In this document: piece after piece, positions 9,372-26,971 of the stretch
Layout of the letters: every line of letters begins with the position of its first letter
Numbering within the stretch: the stretch's first letter is position 1
Source of the DNA: a virus
DNA: 26,971 nt
Virus record (IMG/VR): IMGVR_UViG_3300008219_000074
Location: 1-26,971 of that record
Strand: one strand, 5' to 3'
Translations under genes and position numbers: made by a program
The notes under the pieces: generated by a model
Databases searched by the model: none
What the model was told of the DNA's origin: nothing
What the model saw: only the letters and a program-made list of their open reading frames with translations

Positions 9372-9471
9372 CACAATAGTTTGGGAGGCTACCCAGTTGA
9401 ATTAAATTGGCCCCTCTCTGAGAATATTTCTCGTGGCTACCCTACTATTGGCCCCACATGGAGAATATAAA
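9372..9471 (+). other. In-frame, coding-like stretch after a TAA stop; scaffold leader
   Basis: The 100 bases between the 740-residue protein and the scaffold stay open in the frame of the former: after TAA (9369-9371) the frame reads on for 32 codons to TAA 9468-9470 and includes GGYPVELNWPLSENIS and then RGYPTIGPTWRI. The peptide has a repeated (G/R)GYP element and looks protein-like. At DNA level GGCTACCC occurs at 9387 and 9434 and TTGGCCC at 9407 and 9449, an imperfect tandem repeat. A weak hairpin GAGAA-TAT-TTCTC lies at 9419-9431. Possible meanings are stop-codon readthrough, a remnant of a longer gene, a tiny independent gene starting at TTG 9381, or a structured leader for the scaffold. 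Confidence 0.4.
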
Positions 9472-10323
9472 ATGTCTAATATAGAACGTCAAATGTATAA
9501 GAGTGCCGACCAGTCTGAAGCGGAACAAGATGATAATGTTGTCTTAACTACTCGTGGAGGATATGTTAAAGCTACTCAAGAAACAGAAGAACAGAAAGAA
9601 GACAAGCAAATTGCCGCCGCTGCTAATGATCAAGAGTTAGGTAAGGCCGAAAAGACTTGGGCCTCACGTTATGCTAACCTTCGTAAGTTCTCAGCAAAAG
9701 AAAAAGCGGACATTGAAAATAAGTACCAGGATGAATTAGCCACTATGAGGGCTAAACTCGATGAGACTACCCCATCTGGGCCTCTCTTAACTGATGAAGC
9801 GTTGCAACAATTCATTACCGATCAACCTGATGCCTATAATCTTGTTAATAGTCTGATCCGAAGAGAGTCAGTAGAACGCGACAAAGAAATTGCGAAGCTT
9901 AAAAACACTCTTATAGAAAAAGATAATGAATCTAAGCGTAGTGCGGCAGAGAAAGCTTTATTGCGTAGACATTCTAATTGGGAAGAGATTACTACAAGTG
10001 ATGCTTTCCATGAATGGGCAGCAAGTAAATCTCAAAAGACACAAGACGAGATTTATGAAAACCCAGATGATGCAGGTTTGTTATCAGAAAAAATTGACTT
10101 CTATTTAGCTGAAACAGGTTCAAGCGGCAAGACCAGAAACAATAATGTAAATAAAAAAGCCGCAGCTTCCCTTGTACCAACAAATAGCGGACAATCCGTT
10201 AAAAATTCACAAGGGCGAGTTTATAAACGATCTGAGATTCAGAACATGACTCAGGGACAATATGAAGCTCTCGAAGATGACCTTAATTTGGCAATTAAAG
10301 AAGGGCGGATTATTAATGGATAA
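9472..10323 (+). CDS. Capsid scaffolding protein
   Basis: The start is taken at ATG 9472, with GGAG at 9460-9463; an upstream GTG 9433 lacks a good site. The product is 283 residues, strongly charged and helical, with long Glu/Lys/Ala/Gln stretches (KTWASRYANLRKFSAKEKAD...), typical of scaffolds that line the inside of the prohead and leave or are degraded before packaging. The C-terminus carries the short basic helical unit common to these proteins: VYKRSEIQNMTQGQYEALED and then IKEGRI, comparable to the S-E-I-x-x-M...GRI ending that docks on the capsid protein. It lies directly before the major capsid gene, the canonical order. No protease motif is visible. Confidence 0.85.
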   Translation: MSNIERQMYKSADQSEAEQDDNVVLTTRGGYVKATQETEEQKEDKQIAAAANDQELGKAEKTWASRYANLRKFSAKEKADIENKYQDELATMRAKLDETTPSGPLLTDEALQQFITDQPDAYNLVNSLIRRESVERDKEIAKLKNTLIEKDNESKRSAAEKALLRRHSNWEEITTSDAFHEWAASKSQKTQDEIYENPDDAGLLSEKIDFYLAETGSSGKTRNNNVNKKAAASLVPTNSGQSVKNSQGRVYKRSEIQNMTQGQYEALEDDLNLAIKEGRIING

Positions 10324-19440: not shown

Positions 19441-20640
19441 ATGCCTGAGCAAGAAACAACACCTGTAATTAATCCTAATGCTGATCCTACTACGGGTATT
19501 CAGATTCCTGCTAATGTTCCGTCTGATGAATGGTTAGCTCAACAGGTTGTTAGTCCTGTTATGCCGGGTATGGCAGTACAGGCACCTGTCCAACAAACCA
19601 TAGATGAGGAGAAAGAATTACTACAGCAGACTACTGGGCAAATACCAATAACACCAGAGGCGGAACGTGCTCCTGTAGCTGCAGCAACTCCTACAACTGG
19701 GGCAACTCAAGCAGTAGCTCAGCAAGAAAATATTGAAATAGAGCGTGTACAGGCAGATCAGGGAGTTGCTCAAGAGGGTAATGTAACGCCTCTAAGCACC
19801 GTCAGAGGACAACTAGAGCAGTTGATGGGTGATGTAGAGTCTGATGACGCTCCGTGGGCTGACGAGGCTGTGAGGCGTGCTAATCAGGCAATGTCGGCTC
19901 GTGGTATGGGTAATTCCTCTATAGCAGCTGCAGCAATTACTCAGTCAGTCCTAGAAGCTGCTATGCCTATTGCTCAGTACGATGCAAGTGTCTATGGAAA
20001 TATGAATATCCAGAACCTTCGTAATCGTCAGGAAACCATGCTTAGCAATACTGCTGCTTCTAATGTAGCTAAAAATATGAATGCTAAGACTGCTAATGAA
20101 GTTCAGATGTTTATGAATACTATGAGAGATGGCGTACTCAAGTTTAATTCTACACAGCATGATGCAATGTCTAAATTTAATGCTGTTCAAGGCACTGAAG
20201 TTTCTAAATTTAACGCTGCCGCGAATAATGTTGCTAATCAATTTTACGCCCAAATGGATGATGCTGCTGAGAAATTTAATGCAACCAATACGCTTGCAAT
20301 TTCTAAGAGTAATGCTGAGTGGCGCAGAACTATTAATACAGCAAATACTGCTGCCGTCAATACATCTAATATGGTCAATGCTCAGAATGCATTTAATATG
20401 TCGCAGCAAGCTATGGCTGATCTGTGGCAGCGTTCTAGGGACGTATTCAACTGGGCTAATCAATCAGCAGACAATTCAAAAGATAGGGCTTTCCAAATGG
20501 CTATGTATTCTATGCAGAGAGCAGACTATATGGCGGATATGTCTACCCAAGATAAAAATAATCTTTGGTCAGGTGTTGGAAATTTTGCATATAGTCTCTT
20601 TGAAGATGTCTTAGAAGATACGAATTGGTTTGGAGAATAA
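19441..20640 (+). CDS. Internal virion/ejection-type protein with 11-residue repeats
   Basis: The product is 399 residues. Residues 1-120 are Pro/Gln/Thr/Ala-rich and probably disordered. Residues about 135-185 contain ANQAMSARGMGNSSIAAAAI followed by LEAAMPIAQYDASVYG, a motif (R-G-x-x-N-S-S-x-A...A-x-P-I-A) known from phage ejection and internal virion proteins. Residues 212-313 hold an exact 11-residue repeat centred on KFN. The C-terminus is helical and ends acidic (LFEDVLEDTNWFGE). Heading a run of large helical proteins after the tail genes, it is best seen as packed inside the head and released into the cell. No Shine-Dalgarno is seen; the start follows the previous stop by 6 bases. A tail-needle role is the alternative. 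Confidence 0.55.
   Translation: MPEQETTPVINPNADPTTGIQIPANVPSDEWLAQQVVSPVMPGMAVQAPVQQTIDEEKELLQQTTGQIPITPEAERAPVAAATPTTGATQAVAQQENIEIERVQADQGVAQEGNVTPLSTVRGQLEQLMGDVESDDAPWADEAVRRANQAMSARGMGNSSIAAAAITQSVLEAAMPIAQYDASVYGNMNIQNLRNRQETMLSNTAASNVAKNMNAKTANEVQMFMNTMRDGVLKFNSTQHDAMSKFNAVQGTEVSKFNAAANNVANQFYAQMDDAAEKFNATNTLAISKSNAEWRRTINTANTAAVNTSNMVNAQNAFNMSQQAMADLWQRSRDVFNWANQSADNSKDRAFQMAMYSMQRADYMADMSTQDKNNLWSGVGNFAYSLFEDVLEDTNWFGE
20074..20379 (+). repeat. Hendecad (33-bp periodic) coding repeat
   Basis: In the 399-residue protein the triplet K-F-N or a variant recurs exactly every 11 residues: 212 NMN, 223 MFM, 234 KFN, 245 KFN, 256 KFN, 267 QFY, 278 KFN, 289 KSN, 300 TAN, 311 MVN. The intervening residues vary and the DNA has diverged, so the period is kept by protein structure. 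An 11-residue period is the signature of right-handed coiled coils. Confidence 0.8.
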
Positions 20641-20677: not shown

Positions 20678-20998
20678 ATGGGAATATTTACAAATATTAT
20701 AGGCGCTCTTGCTGGCCCACTTGTTACAAATGTAGTTGGTGGTATATTTGGTCTTGATGGGGAAGATAAAAAAAGCAGTGATGGCAAGCCCAGATTAGTG
20801 GCAAAACCTGAACCTCCCAAGGCATTTAAAAGCCGTGAGATAAAGGACTTTAGTCCTAGATCCTTTGCAGGGGACCGTAAAGATGCTCCGATTGCTGGTG
20901 CCGTTGCTGCTTTACGCAGCATAAGTCCATCTGAAAGAGAAACACGGTACTGGTCAGCAATATTTGCTGATGCCAAACGAAAATCGGAGATTGGATAA
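20678..20998 (+). CDS. Small protein with hydrophobic N-terminus, unknown function
   Basis: The product is 106 residues; GGAGAG precedes the ATG within a 37-base AT-rich gap that includes TATTATATAC, a conceivable but unsupported -10 element. Residues 2-26 (GIFTNIIGALAGPLVTNVVG, GIFGL) are hydrophobic and Gly-rich, perhaps a membrane-interacting helix; the rest is basic and polar (KPRLVAKPEPPKAFKSREIK, ending SAIFADAKRKSEIG). No family is recognised. Among presumed ejection proteins, a membrane-active peptide that helps DNA entry would make sense, but this is speculative. The stop overlaps the next gene (TAATG). Confidence 0.5.
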   Translation: MGIFTNIIGALAGPLVTNVVGGIFGLDGEDKKSSDGKPRLVAKPEPPKAFKSREIKDFSPRSFAGDRKDAPIAGAVAALRSISPSERETRYWSAIFADAKRKSEIG

Positions 20999-21552
20999 TG
21001 GCTGAAAATCCTTTTGATATTCTAGGAGATATGGAAGCAGCAATGCCACCTATGCAAGAACCTGCTATACCTCCTACTGAAATGGATCAGAATACTAACT
21101 TTAAACAGTTTGATACTCCCATCCCTGGTCAGTCCTTAACTGAGACACCTGGGAATGCTAAATATGAGCAGCCCCCACAGTACACTGAGTTAACTGATTT
21201 CATGGATTATATGTTTAAATCCATGAATAGAAAAAATGTTCGTAGGGATTTATTGCGTATGCTAGATGCTGGTGTACCTGTGAAAATACTTATTGAGCCA
21301 ATTATTATGCAAGCTGTAAGTGAAGGTAAAATTAGTATGGATCTTGCTGTTATGTCGCTTCAACCATTAGCGACAATGATTTATGGCATGGGAGATGCTG
21401 CAGGAATTAATGTAGTGTTTCAGGAAGATAAACAAGAAATAGGCTTAGATGCCCGTCCCTTTGAAAAGGCATTTAAGAAAAAGCGTGAGGATACAACTCC
21501 ACCTAAATTACCTGAAACCAAAAATAATCTAGTAGCTAGGAGAACAATGTAA
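20998..21552 (+). CDS. Helical virion-block protein of unknown function
   Basis: The product is 184 residues. The N-terminal 60 residues are Pro/Met/Glu-rich (MEAAMPPMQEPAIPPTEMD). The core, about residues 65-145, is compact and helical: FMDYMFKSMNRKNVRRDLLR, MLDAGVPVKILIEPIIMQAV and LAVMSLQPLATMIYGMGDAA. I know this type of core from marine phage genomes as a small conserved protein without assigned function. The tail is Lys/Pro-rich. CGGAG lies before the ATG and the gene is coupled at both ends by TAATG, so it is made together with the flanking proteins, probably in fixed ratio. Confidence 0.5.
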   Translation: MAENPFDILGDMEAAMPPMQEPAIPPTEMDQNTNFKQFDTPIPGQSLTETPGNAKYEQPPQYTELTDFMDYMFKSMNRKNVRRDLLRMLDAGVPVKILIEPIIMQAVSEGKISMDLAVMSLQPLATMIYGMGDAAGINVVFQEDKQEIGLDARPFEKAFKKKREDTTPPKLPETKNNLVARRTM

Positions 21553-23207
21553 TGGGTGCAGGAACAGCGTTTCTAACTGGGTTTGTTGATGCGGCTAATC
21601 AGAGTCGTTATGAAAAGCGTATGGCTGAACATGAACAGTCTATCCAAGACCGTGCGGATTTTACGTGGAAAGAACGTGATGAGGAAGCGAGAGCTAGGGC
21701 TCTAGAAGATCAAAGAACTGAACGGGAGTTTAGAGAAAGAACTGCTGCTACGCTAGCTGAGACACAGACTGATGCTACTGCACTGGCTAGGACGCATGCA
21801 CAAGAAGATCAAAGAATAGCTGACGAACAAGCTACAGAACAATTAACTGAGACACTTCTAGCACTAAATCCAACATATGCTGACAATCCAGAGGCTCTTG
21901 CTAGGGCACTTACATATGGTGAAGATGGACTCGCCATGTTTACCCATAGAGGGTCTAGATATGACCCAGATGGTTATTTGATTTCAAGCGAGGACATCCT
22001 CGACAGAGACACAGAAGCATTTGTTAGAGCCAATGCTCCAATATCTTGGAGAGGTAATGAGGATGCGTGGATGTTGACAGAAGCAGCTAAAGAGTTTGGG
22101 GAAATGGTAAGGAAAGAAGGTGGTAGGTCTGGGCGTGTTGCCTTTAATGATGCTCGGATGCGTTTTGAAGATACTATCGGTGAGGATGGTGTCAGGACTG
22201 GTGCACGTATTGTACGTCCAGCTGCAGAGGGTCCAGAACAGTATAGACTAACTGCTGCTGATAATGAGGACTTTATCACGCTAAAGAGACAAGCGTATAA
22301 TAGTTTCAATAGCATTATGAAACTTACTCTAGACGAAAATAACGTGCCCCTCACACCAGGAGTATATACATCTGTTGTAGAGGGAGTAACCGGACTAGCT
22401 GCTGCAGCGTACAGTAATGCACAAACCCAGCGTATTGCAGGAACTAATCCAAGCCTTTCATTTGACACTACATTTAAAGCTATGTTTGGAAAGAAACATG
22501 AGGATCTACGACAACTTGATGACGCGCATTTAGCAATTGGTGCTAATGCTATAGCGGCCTATGTTGCTGACCCCACATCTTTGTCTAATTTACCTGCAGC
22601 TGAGTTACTAAAAATATATGAAAACATACGTGTCAGGAACAAGGTGACACTTAATGTTCCGAATGTGGATCTTACTGAGCAACGCGGCACTTTTGTATTA
22701 AATGATATTCTGCGTGACATAGAGGCTAATCCTGGGTTTATTACTGAATATGGTAGTGATGAGCAGAGAGCAGCACTTGCGGAACTTACTTCTACTATTA
22801 CTCCTGTTGTTCCTGCTCCTGCTCCTCCTGTTGCTGGTGGGCCTGGCCCTGCTGAACCTGCTGCTGCTTTTGTTGACCCCGATAAGCTATATAGTATTAC
22901 TAATGGAATTAGCACCACTATAAACACAGACGGAAAAGTCCTTTATTCCTATGATAATGAAGAAGGACAAAAGAAAATGAATGCTGCAGTTGAGGCATTT
23001 ACAGCACATATAGAAGAACAAAAAGGTAAAACTATTAGGCAGGCTATAGGATCTCAACGGAACTTACAGTGGTTTATTGCAAAGGAATTTGGACTTAGAA
23101 AAACTTATGTGGGTAATTATCGCCAAAGAGCAAAAGCTAATGAGAAGAGAACTAATGCTATTGCTCAATTAGAAGAGCAATGGCGTAGAAGCATGGAGAC
23201 ACGATAA
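21552..23207 (+). CDS. Large coiled-coil internal virion-type protein
   Basis: The product is 551 residues; AGGAG precedes the TAATG start. The first residues MGAGTAFLTGFVDAANQSRY are followed by a long charged helix (about 16-105: EKRMAEHEQSIQDRADFTWK, ERDEEARARALEDQRTEREF), a strong coiled coil. The middle (about 110-390) is a helical globular part with ANAPISWRGNEDAWMLTEAA and ANAIAAYVADPTSL. At about residues 417-435 lies a Pro/Ala/Gly linker (VPAPAPPVAGGPGPAEPAAA), then a C-terminal domain ending in a basic helix. No hydrolase motif is visible. Position before the very large protein and the coiled coil suggest one of a set of internal virion proteins forming the ejection conduit; sequence alone does not prove it. 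Confidence 0.5.
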   Translation: MGAGTAFLTGFVDAANQSRYEKRMAEHEQSIQDRADFTWKERDEEARARALEDQRTEREFRERTAATLAETQTDATALARTHAQEDQRIADEQATEQLTETLLALNPTYADNPEALARALTYGEDGLAMFTHRGSRYDPDGYLISSEDILDRDTEAFVRANAPISWRGNEDAWMLTEAAKEFGEMVRKEGGRSGRVAFNDARMRFEDTIGEDGVRTGARIVRPAAEGPEQYRLTAADNEDFITLKRQAYNSFNSIMKLTLDENNVPLTPGVYTSVVEGVTGLAAAAYSNAQTQRIAGTNPSLSFDTTFKAMFGKKHEDLRQLDDAHLAIGANAIAAYVADPTSLSNLPAAELLKIYENIRVRNKVTLNVPNVDLTEQRGTFVLNDILRDIEANPGFITEYGSDEQRAALAELTSTITPVVPAPAPPVAGGPGPAEPAAAFVDPDKLYSITNGISTTINTDGKVLYSYDNEEGQKKMNAAVEAFTAHIEEQKGKTIRQAIGSQRNLQWFIAKEFGLRKTYVGNYRQRAKANEKRTNAIAQLEEQWRRSMETR

Positions 23208-26200
23208 ATGGAGTTTAAGTCTATGGCGCATTTACTCCCAGAGAATAATACTCTTGGATTTAGGCGTAGACAAGACGAAGAGGACAAGCCCTGGAGCTTG
23301 CCTGGTGAATTTGTTCGTGCCGTTGGTACAGGAGCGCGGGCTACTGCCCAAAGTATTGCGGAACTACCTAAAATTATTCCTGGTATAGACTATGAAGTAA
23401 CCGTTCCTGAGTTTACTGAGCGTCCTCAGACCGTTGGTGGGGATATTGCAGCTGCAATGGTGCAGTTTGCCGTGCCATATGGTGTGGTTCTTAAAGGTAT
23501 ATCACTAGGTTCTAGACTATTTGGAGCAGGTCGTGCTGCTCGTACTGCTGCTGAAGCTGCCCGTGCTGCTCAGGTTGCGAGTTCCGCTCGTACTGCAGAA
23601 GCTATTACTACAGCCCCAAAGGTTGGACAAGCTGCGGAAGTAGCTCGTAAGGCTACGTTACTTGATGATGCAGTAGTACCTATACCTTTAACTAAGAGAC
23701 AAAAACTAGTTAAGTATGCTGGTGCCGGTGCTGCCGCAGATTTTATTGCTTTCTCTCCTAATGACCCAACTCTTGGTAATTTCATACAGGGGTTAGGTGG
23801 TGATAAGATCCCTGTTATCAATGCAATCAGTGATCTTCTGGCCACAGATGAGGACGACTCAGATGCCCTTAACCGTTTCCGTCATGTGATGGAAGGTCTT
23901 GGACTAGGTGCTGCTGTTCCTATGGTCTTTAAAGGATTGGGCAAGGGCCTGTCTTTGTCTGGACAAGCTATTGACAAGGTTACACCGTATGCTAAAGATG
24001 CTCGTGGCAGACCTGTGTATAAGCAAGATGTTCTTGTCAAAACGGAACCTAGAAAGAAGAAGGATGGCACCCCAGACTTACGCTTTAAACAGAAGCCGCC
24101 TCAGTATGAGAAACGTCAAATTAACATAATTGAGTATCGTAGAGATAAACTAGTAGGTGCTCTGGATAAAACTATACAGAACTTTGTTGATAAAAGCCAC
24201 GCTGTGCGTCTTATTGATGAAGCGTATGAGAAGTTTAACCCTAACAAACCTCATGCATTAAGGAATGGCCTTAATGCATGGAAAGAACGGCGTATGCTTG
24301 TTTCTATAGAGGAGCAACAGATAAGAGCATATAATGACGGATTCTATAGAACTGGTATTGACGGCGTACCTGTTAGGTATAGTAACCATAAAAGTATGAA
24401 GGAAATTGAGCAAAATATTGTTAAGGTGGCTGAGCTTTCTCCTACTACCAGACAAGAGACTATAGATCTTCATCAAGACTATTTGTATGCTGTCCAAGCA
24501 AAACAACACAAAGCAACTAAGAAGTTGTCTGGTCTTGATGATGAAAAAATTAAAAATACTCTTGCCCGTGTAGAGGCATTACCATCTAATATTAAAACTG
24601 CTTTTGAAACAAGTGTTAAGGATCTTAAAGATTATAATAATGCCGCATTAAGACTGCTTCTTGATGAGGGTATTATTGATAAGGCTACCTTTGATAATAT
24701 TGGTAAAGTTAAGGTTGGTAGGAAACTAGAAGATAGACTGTGGATTCCTATGCTTAGACAAGGTGATGATAGAGCTATTGAATTAGCTCTGGCTTCTTGG
24801 GCACCCACGATTCCCAAAGGTAGTAAGGTGTCCATCAGTAGGGCTGATCTATCTAAATTATCTCAAGCAGAGTTAAGAGAATATAACATAGAGAACCCAT
24901 TAAATCAGGCGTACAATAACCTTGAGTTGGGCTATGATCACATTATTAAGTCAGTTGCTGAGAACCGTGCTAAGAGAGCTATGTACGACACTATTATTGA
25001 GCTTGGAGAACAGGGAACAAAATGGGCTGTGAAATCTACTAAAGTCGTTACCAGGAAGGATATTTCTGGTAGAGGTATAAAGGAGTTATTAGGTAAGCAA
25101 GGTGGCGCACTTAAAGATACTCTTAATGACAGTGATATCTTTAAGATGTTTAGCTCTAAGTACGATATCACAAATAAAACTGATATTATTTACCGAGATG
25201 GTAAGGCAGAAGTGTGGGATATTAAAGACCCACTTCTTATGGATTCTCTTCAGGCCATGGGGCCACAGCTTACTAAGGATTTTACCCGTTTTTATATGCG
25301 GTGGGGTGGTAAGTTTAAGAATTTTCTGACACGTATGGTCACGTCTTCTCCCACATTCTTTTTTGGTTCAAACTTTGCACGGGATACCCTATCCGTTGGC
25401 ATACTTATGAAAGGATTTATACCTTTTATTAGTTCCTACAGGGGTCTATACCACCAGTTACGCAATACTGATATTGCTAAACGGTTAGAGGTTTCTGGCG
25501 GAACATTTGGCAACAGAGCATATACTGATTTCGGTACTAGTAAAGAGTTTCAAGGTAGAAATGCTTCTCGTATCCACACCATTGATGGGCCTAAAGGTCT
25601 TACGAAAGTTGTTGGGTTCATTGATAAATGGACATCTAAATTTGAAATGGCTTCTCGTACAGAAGCGTTTCGCTTGTTCACCAAGCAGGGATACTCAGAT
25701 AACGTAGCTGCGTTCAAGGCTAGAGAGATTGCTGTGGACTTTGCACAGAGTGGTAGTAGCGCAAACTTTAGACTTGCTACTTCTACCGTTCCATTTTTGA
25801 ATGCAAGTATTCAAGGTTTAAGTCGTACCCTACGTGCGCTTGGAGGTAAGAAACTTACTGGTAAAAAGTTAACTGCCGAAGAAGTAGAGGAAGTAGGACG
25901 TGCATGGACAAACATGATGGCCGTAACGACAGTAGGTGGCGTTCTACTACCTATGGCACATTATACAAGTTCAGATGAAAGCATCCGTACTACATACGAC
26001 GAAATTCCTAAGTACTTAAAGGATACAAACTTTGTATGGGTTACCCCAAAAATTGATGGGGTAAACCAGATTATATTACTGCCCAAGCCTTTCGACTTTG
26101 GTATCATCCCCACTATTGCTGAGAAGTTTCTTGATGAGGAATTCATTGAGTCTGATGCAATGGTTGTCAGGGAATACTTGCGTACAGCCTTTCTTAATTC

Positions 26201-26971
26201 TACCCGCTTAGGTGACGCTTCGTTAGCCCCACAGTTTATTCGTCCTTTAATAGAACTAAAAATTAATAAGAAGTTTACTGGTGCACCTATTGTACCCCGT
26301 AATTTACAGGGCGGTACTATTGCACAACGTAGGTTCTGGACTAGTCCTACTGCTACATTCTTTGCAGATGTAGCTGGTAGTTTGAATTTCAAGCCAGAGT
26401 GGACTAAATCCCCCTTAGCTGTAGAACATATATTGAACTCTTACTTTGGTACGGTGGGAGGATTTGTAATGGACTATATTACTGATCCTGTTTTCAGAGG
26501 AATGCTAGAGCTTCCAGATAAGCCTATTGAGCCAGAGGGTAGGCGTTGGCCTTGGGAAGAAGGTGCACTAGGACTAGGTAAGGTGGGTAAGGTATTACCC
26601 GTACAAATTAGGTCCGATGCTTTATCCACTACTCGTTCTGTGAATGAATTGTATGATGCATTTAATAAGGCTAAAAGCTTTAAGATTGACTTCGACTCTG
26701 TGAAAAATAATCTTGATGGATTTACACAAAAGCACTTTCAAGAGATGATTAAAGACCCAGAGACTATGTTCTTCCTTATTCAATATCCAATGCTTGAAGA
26801 GGCTTTATCTAATTTAGCTGATATAAACAAACAGATAAAAAACTTAGCTACGCTTGACCCTGGAGATTTAGCTGCCCGTGATGCCCTGACGCAGATGAAA
26901 CAAGTAATATCCCGCCAGTTTATGAAAGTATATTATATTCAAAGGAATAGGTTTTCAAGGGAGCAGCAGGG
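23208..26971 (+). CDS. Very large polyvalent/internal virion protein, 3' end outside window
   Basis: An open frame of 1254 codons runs from ATG 23208, directly after the previous stop, to the window edge without a stop. Near the N-terminus, RPQTVGGDIAAAMVQFAVPY is a hydrophobic pattern seen at the start of large phage internal proteins, followed by an Ala/Arg-rich stretch (about 110-145). The middle is helical with basic clusters. From about residue 700, TSSPTFFFGSNFARDTL, FIDKWTSKFEMASRTEAFRL, REIAVDFAQSGSSANFR, LPKPFDFGIIPTIAEKF and HILNSYFGTVGGFVMDYITD resemble the LPD38-type domain of large polyvalent proteins. No transglycosylase, protease or polymerase motif is visible in the part shown. 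I infer a T7 gp16-like ejection protein; a DNA-associated polyvalent protein is the alternative. Confidence 0.65.
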   Translation, partial: MEFKSMAHLLPENNTLGFRRRQDEEDKPWSLPGEFVRAVGTGARATAQSIAELPKIIPGIDYEVTVPEFTERPQTVGGDIAAAMVQFAVPYGVVLKGISLGSRLFGAGRAARTAAEAARAAQVASSARTAEAITTAPKVGQAAEVARKATLLDDAVVPIPLTKRQKLVKYAGAGAAADFIAFSPNDPTLGNFIQGLGGDKIPVINAISDLLATDEDDSDALNRFRHVMEGLGLGAAVPMVFKGLGKGLSLSGQAIDKVTPYAKDARGRPVYKQDVLVKTEPRKKKDGTPDLRFKQKPPQYEKRQINIIEYRRDKLVGALDKTIQNFVDKSHAVRLIDEAYEKFNPNKPHALRNGLNAWKERRMLVSIEEQQIRAYNDGFYRTGIDGVPVRYSNHKSMKEIEQNIVKVAELSPTTRQETIDLHQDYLYAVQAKQHKATKKLSGLDDEKIKNTLARVEALPSNIKTAFETSVKDLKDYNNAALRLLLDEGIIDKATFDNIGKVKVGRKLEDRLWIPMLRQGDDRAIELALASWAPTIPKGSKVSISRADLSKLSQAELREYNIENPLNQAYNNLELGYDHIIKSVAENRAKRAMYDTIIELGEQGTKWAVKSTKVVTRKDISGRGIKELLGKQGGALKDTLNDSDIFKMFSSKYDITNKTDIIYRDGKAEVWDIKDPLLMDSLQAMGPQLTKDFTRFYMRWGGKFKNFLTRMVTSSPTFFFGSNFARDTLSVGILMKGFIPFISSYRGLYHQLRNTDIAKRLEVSGGTFGNRAYTDFGTSKEFQGRNASRIHTIDGPKGLTKVVGFIDKWTSKFEMASRTEAFRLFTKQGYSDNVAAFKAREIAVDFAQSGSSANFRLATSTVPFLNASIQGLSRTLRALGGKKLTGKKLTAEEVEEVGRAWTNMMAVTTVGGVLLPMAHYTSSDESIRTTYDEIPKYLKDTNFVWVTPKIDGVNQIILLPKPFDFGIIPTIAEKFLDEEFIESDAMVVREYLRTAFLNSTRLGDASLAPQFIRPLIELKINKKFTGAPIVPRNLQGGTIAQRRFWTSPTATFFADVAGSLNFKPEWTKSPLAVEHILNSYFGTVGGFVMDYITDPVFRGMLELPDKPIEPEGRRWPWEEGALGLGKVGKVLPVQIRSDALSTTRSVNELYDAFNKAKSFKIDFDSVKNNLDGFTQKHFQEMIKDPETMFFLIQYPMLEEALSNLADINKQIKNLATLDPGDLAARDALTQMKQVISRQFMKVYYIQRNRFSREQQ

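Follow-up and report, generated by a model that had tools for sequence, protein, structure and literature searches.

The DNA pilot protein H of phiX174 contains three hendecads followed by heptads and forms a decameric tube with a lining of Asn, Gln and Arg residues (PMC7354561). In T7, mostly helical proteins of the ejectosome form a hexameric tunnel through the periplasm (PMC8954989). The proteins gp20-24 of SU10, which are encoded soon after the needle gene gp18, are ejection proteins, present in the virion and absent from the genome-release intermediate (PMC9509320). Phages of the HMO-2011 type have been counted among the most abundant phages in the sea (PMC6918029; PMC9038755), and the locus described here belongs to a phage fragment with similarity to this group.

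The window, i.e., the whole stretch of DNA that was analyzed, comprises 26,971 nucleotides of the virus record IMGVR_UViG_3300008219_000074. Its portal protein shares 43-50% identity with those of HTVC033P, CRP-1, HMO-2011 and relatives, the terminase and the capsid protein match PHROG families and the head-tail adaptor matches the Pfam family SU10_adaptor. Judged by these sequence similarities, the fragment derives from an HMO-2011-type podophage. On its plus strand the ORF at 19441-20640 encodes a protein of 399 amino acids with hendecad repeats, which the homolog search linked to HMO-2011 phage1322_25, CHOED_013 and SmphiM6_25.

The N-terminal region of this protein (residues 1-115, 19441-19785, plus strand like all following parts) is variable in the alignment, modeled with low confidence by AlphaFold2 and probably disordered; within the family it is rich in T, A, Q, G and P. 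It is followed by a conserved entry domain (residues 116-186, 19786-19998; QL..L...P-W-A...RG.G.SS...PIA..DA), which was delimited by conserved residues and helix prediction and in which short helices are predicted to precede the start of a long helix. P138, G155, S159, P176, I177 and A178 are invariant; within the annotated set this also holds for W139 and A140. Period tests and indels in multiples of 11 in relatives define a hendecad array of twelve 11-residue units (residues 190-321, 20008-20403), and the AlphaFold2 model adds a C-terminal helical region (residues 322-399, 20404-20637). No significant match of the window protein to Pfam, PHROGs or NCBIfam was found. The expectation that gene callers would label it only as hypothetical was borne out, since annotated homologs are listed as "hypothetical protein" or, in one record, as "huntingtin". 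The latter (MW202701, L019:3963-6554) is an evident misannotation of a Q/A/N/P-rich repeat protein. The repeat family is new to annotation and is missed by gene callers; it lacks a Pfam or NCBIfam model, and the window protein falls into no PHROG.

The eleven-residue period and the predicted helix

A preliminary description of this DNA had reported ten consecutive K-F-N-like positions, spaced by exactly 11 residues from residue 212 to 311 without insertion, and all ten units are indeed in register. The triplets at the unit starts 212, 223 and so on to 311 read NMN, MFM, KFN, KFN, KFN, QFY, KFN, KSN, TAN and MVN, with F at position 2 in six and N at position 3 in eight of the ten units and an exact KFN in four. 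The region initially described (20074-20379) corresponds to residues 212-313 of the ORF and the ten complete units extend over 20074-20403; the register of the ladder begins about two units earlier, with IQN at residue 190 and LSN at residue 201 (N192 and N203).

Self-identity at lag 11 within residues 186-365 amounted to 40 of 169 comparisons against 14.5 expected (z = 7.2), a score which none of 2000 shuffled sequences reached at any lag. Echoes were observed at lags 22 and 33 and no signal was obtained at lag 7, which agrees with the claim that the spacing follows 11 and not seven residues. Moreover, a ladder of equal quality did not occur in any of 3000 shuffles, and over lags 5 to 19 the highest two-column score was 15/20, as compared to at most 12 in shuffled sequences. 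In the DNA no 33-bp tandem repeat was found; the period is therefore held at the protein level, and a recent origin by DNA slippage was rejected on the same grounds. The "aromatic-Asn ladder" proposed initially holds for the Asn residues, which occupy position 3 in 72-77% of the units along the whole array, whereas conservation of Phe is confined to the FNA segment.

AlphaFold2 (monomer) predicted helix throughout past about residue 120, and a globular fold, which would have spoken against the repeat interpretation, was not predicted. The full-length model (pLDDT 67, pTM 0.35) contains helix breaks at residues 213-217, 251-256 and 319-321, and a focused model (pLDDT 71, pTM 0.30; numbering shifted by 115) consists of helices at 160-215, 218-318 and 322-397; the confidence of both models is middling. 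The hydrophobic peak of the hendecad region lies at 3.66 residues per turn, equivalent to 11/3, and therefore points to a supercoil that is almost straight or only weakly right-handed. The superhelix of this kind suggested before is thus in accord with the 11-residue period (3.67 residues per turn), with homolog indels in multiples of 11 and with the predicted helix.

On the helix wheel, hydrophobic residues accumulate at positions 2, 6 and 10 in the FNA segment and at 1, 4 and 10 in the upstream segment, where the uncharged Q-rich positions 5, 8 and 9 lie between them. The harmonics of the hydrophobic wheel were not significant (p 0.14-0.83, permutation of the 11 positions). A two-seam signal as for a barrel was not significant (p 0.14-0.32), and the helix wheel therefore does not choose between a trimer and a barrel. 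Searches of the PDB by sequence and by fold, including Foldseek, gave no convincing match to the window protein; the VIA-align rows with Z 5-7 are inside the range which is common for long helices. Taken together, sequence and models support the view that the repeat segment forms a continuous hendecad (11/3) coiled coil and not a hairpin or a globule.

Distribution of the family and length changes in whole units

By tblastn, the repeat protein was detected in 26 phage records, all of which belong to the HMO-2011-type group or its kin (HMO-2011, CRP, HTVC, CHOED, phiM6, MQM1, Slicky01, RHph); CRP-212 joins the family through CRP-3. In IMG/VR, 566 of the first 600 candidates from an alignment query were confirmed, so that the family has at least 566 loci there, and a scan of IMG/VR for close relatives with the window protein alone gave no match. 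For 18 annotated homologs the lags 11, 22 or 33 were best or near-best among lags 5 to 39 in nearly every protein. One round of these lag scores was biased by the choice of the sequence window and was not relied on alone.

Most telling is the spacing between two anchors, "PIA" (residue 176) and "N..WRR" (residue 291). Among relatives 11 different lengths between 95 and 337 residues occur, yet the remainder modulo 11 is identical in all 96 unique sequences that could be measured. The 11-residue period was present in every homolog examined. The anchor "LGVAE" of CRP-235 was at first matched one residue late (remainder 6) and agrees with the others after correction. When the interval was split at a middle anchor, each sub-segment was in phase in 77 of 77 cases, and the lengths of the two sub-segments were anticorrelated (Spearman -0.51, non-redundant set). 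Since the arms of a hairpin would have to match in length, such a fold is not indicated; the hairpin that could be read from the break at 251-256 in the full-length model was also ruled out by the focused model, which lacks this break. Whole-unit changes are expected because a continuous helix would pack on in-register neighbors, whereas a loop would tolerate any length.

The repeat segment of the family contains neither Pro nor Cys in 11,095 residues, is composed of N, Q and A to 49% and of K and R to about 6%, and is preceded by an N-terminal region with 7.9% Pro. Within the Pelagibacter phages the anchor spacing is 161 residues in HTVC033P as against 315 in HTVC104P and HTVC115P; the length of the helix is therefore not simply tied to the host genus. 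From the sequences, the family is one of about 10 to 30 pure hendecads which is lengthened or shortened by whole units. It thereby represents a natural series for the study of right-handed coiled coils, and the same series of lengths is suited to test whether the length of the rod or tube matters for crossing of the cell envelope.

Neighboring genes and possible functions

The repeat gene heads a block of genes on the same strand, in which it is followed by a small variable gene, a gene for ~180 amino acids, usually a gene for ~300-900 amino acids and a large gene for ~800-1400 amino acids. In the window these positions are all occupied on the plus strand. The ORF at 20678-20998 encodes 106 amino acids with a hydrophobic, Gly-rich N terminus, and unrelated small or lytic genes hold its position in relatives. 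The conserved partner gene at 20998-21552 (184 amino acids) has the orientation of the repeat gene and lies downstream of it in 90 of 98 loci, and it occurs in 27 phage records, among them all 26 with a match to the repeat gene. It accompanies the repeat gene strictly and belongs to no known family. For the 551-amino-acid protein encoded at 21552-23207 no database relative was detectable by tblastn, and a gene of roughly similar size holds this position in many relatives. The block continues with a large LPD38 protein (Pfam PF18857, E 1.6e-22) of >1254 amino acids (23208-26969, cut by the end of the window), which also has a weak internal-virion-protein match (phrog_6651, E 3.3e-6). Relatives of the LPD38 protein are found in 165 phage records, some of them annotated as DarB-like antirestriction proteins or DNA methylases.

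In CRP-235 a LysM domain is fused to the N terminus of the homolog, and the gene directly after the repeat gene encodes a lytic transglycosylase in CRP-13 and a LysM+GH19 protein in CRP-207. Because the gene heads a block for proteins of ~180, ~550 and >1250 (LPD38) amino acids and because peptidoglycan-binding or lytic modules occur in some relatives, a role of the repeat protein in ejection is most likely. The designation "ejection-type" in the preliminary description is thereby backed by context only. A literature search found no virion proteomics for any member of the HMO-2011-type group.

Genes annotated as toxin-activating lysine-acyltransferase or putative acyltransferase were found near or adjoining the repeat gene in HTVC115P, CRP-235 and CRP-738 (L010:5420-5869; L018:1-45; L017:1-209); these enzymes might acylate a virion protein. 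Just upstream of the repeat gene of HTVC033P (L005:3397-5511), two 2OG-Fe(II) oxygenase genes and one ferrochelatase gene are annotated.

We give about an even chance to the explanation that the repeat protein is a virion protein of the ejection block which forms an in-register hendecad coiled-coil rod or conduit across the periplasm. The variable N-terminal tail and the small conserved helical domain would lead into one long proline-free helix, for which the exact 11/3 repeat is read from the sequence and the helix is predicted. Several chains would associate in parallel and in register to a coiled coil that is almost straight or has a slight right-handed twist, and a seam of Phe, Ile, Val and Ala together with an Asn every 11 residues would hold it. 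The protein would be packaged with the co-encoded proteins of ~180, ~550 and >1250 amino acids, exit through the tail at infection and form or stiffen a rod or conduit which extends through the periplasm for some 20 nm or more. As the sequences show, its length has evolved solely in steps of 11 residues, because each unit keeps the register.

The oligomeric state bears on the alternatives. Of 19 aligned relatives, three (CRP-3, CRP-738, CRP-235) carry a C-terminal Peptidase_S74 domain, which follows the region matching residues 322-399 of the window protein; CRP-212 has an S74 C terminus by similarity, and no such domain was found in the window protein. S74 is an intramolecular chaperone known from trimeric fibers, an analogy which favors a trimeric rod at least in the S74-bearing subgroup. 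An external trimeric stalk is one alternative: the protein could be a tail needle or fiber comparable to P22 gp26 and SU10 gp18, its shaft built of hendecads rather than heptads with a ring of Asn in the core at each 11-residue step, and it would plug or pierce at the tail end and provide no conduit. We hold this to be possible, though rather unlikely. Apart from the four S74-bearing relatives, it would fit that the needle gene of SU10 sits just before the ejection genes, that the FNA segment of the window protein shows mainly one hydrophobic seam and that no other gene of the window was recognized as a needle. The tail needle gene of P22 is likewise located just before the ejection genes. However, the window protein, like most relatives, shows no detectable S74, beta-prism or knob, no sequence match to the SU10 needle or to any needle or fiber in the PDB was found, and the N-terminal LysM domain of one member would be unusual for a needle. 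S74 also terminates 7-11-type "DNA ejection" proteins (phrog_4287), among them Privateer gp18, whose record gives verification by mass spectrometry, and therefore does not put the repeat protein outside the capsid.

As a sub-case of the ejection reading, the chains could assemble to a wide alpha-helical tube like the decamer of phiX174 H, with Gln and Asn lining a DNA channel. Hendecads in phiX174 H (PMC7354561), the high content of N, Q and A and the Q-rich positions amid the hydrophobic ones in the upstream segment would agree with such a tube. A tube or fiber had been suggested initially; we regard the tube as unlikely, since the wheel analysis gave no significant two-seam signal, the S74-bearing relatives argue for a trimeric rod and no match to phiX174 H in sequence or fold was found. 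An internal core or scaffold rod which organizes DNA or the portal in the capsid, with the repeat number as a ruler, would explain changes in whole units as in tape-measure proteins. This is very unlikely, as the capsid gene is preceded by another gene (9433-10323, phrog_13678) whose position and size are those of a scaffold gene and as the spacing differs twofold at similar genome size in the Pelagibacter phages named above. Periodicity of 11/3 is also common to the lipid-binding 11-mers of apolipoproteins, alpha-synuclein and perilipins, and an ejected protein would meet membranes at infection. Nevertheless, an amphipathic 3-11 helix which binds lipid and coats such a membrane is most improbable: the typical positively charged flanks are lacking, the repeat is N/Q-rich and not strongly amphipathic, and the strictly in-phase length changes fit a partner-registered coiled coil better. 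A rod or conduit of the ejection block remains the preferred explanation.

Comparison with described delivery proteins

No homology to the ejection proteins of T7, P22, SU10 or phiX174 was detected, and the comparison is therefore one of arrangement and form. With gp14, gp15 and gp16 of the T7 ejectosome the locus has an internal block of several proteins in common; for gp15 no hendecads are described (PMC8954989) and a sequence relation to the window protein was not detected. The tail needles P22 gp26 and SU10 gp18 are trimeric coiled-coil rods, a form which the repeat protein may share, and the gp18 gene adjoins the ejection genes. Unlike the repeat protein, gp18 has no 11-residue period and ends in a beta-prism (PMC9509320).

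The ejection proteins of SU10, phiEco32 and 7-11 (phrog_4287; SU10 gp21 and gp22) are also Q/N/A-rich and encoded in front of genes for ~550 and more amino acids; the last two of SU10 gp20-24 comprise 551 and 1473 amino acids. This parallel in position and size supports an ejection role without proving it. The 7-11-type proteins moreover carry an S74 tail as do the homologs of the CRP-3 type. They differ in that an 11-residue period is absent and in that no profile similarity to the repeat family was found outside S74. Membership in this protein group was rejected, as the matches to phrog_4287 and phrog_6121 disappear once S74 is removed; a motif resemblance of "RGxGxSS" to "GNMGSSRAG" of 7-11 gp20 gained no support from hhalign. 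BLAST and phmmer comparisons of the block proteins with SU10 gp16-24 revealed no similarity.

The phiX174 H chain was not matched in the PDB profile searches or by Foldseek, by which weak relatives could be missed. H is the protein of an ssDNA microvirus with a solved decamer (PDB 4JPP) and differs from the window protein in that its hendecads, only three, are followed by heptads. Both have 11-residue (11/3) repeats in a long, N/Q-rich helix, and lag 11 is the top lag of H by the period test that was used on the window protein. Considering its part in DNA delivery, H is plausibly the closest functional analog. A more far-reaching interpretation, which we consider quite doubtful, is that a group of tailed phages which ranks with the most abundant ones of the ocean uses a pure-hendecad, Asn-laddered helical conduit, convergent with phiX174 H, in which the count of 11-residue units determines the length.
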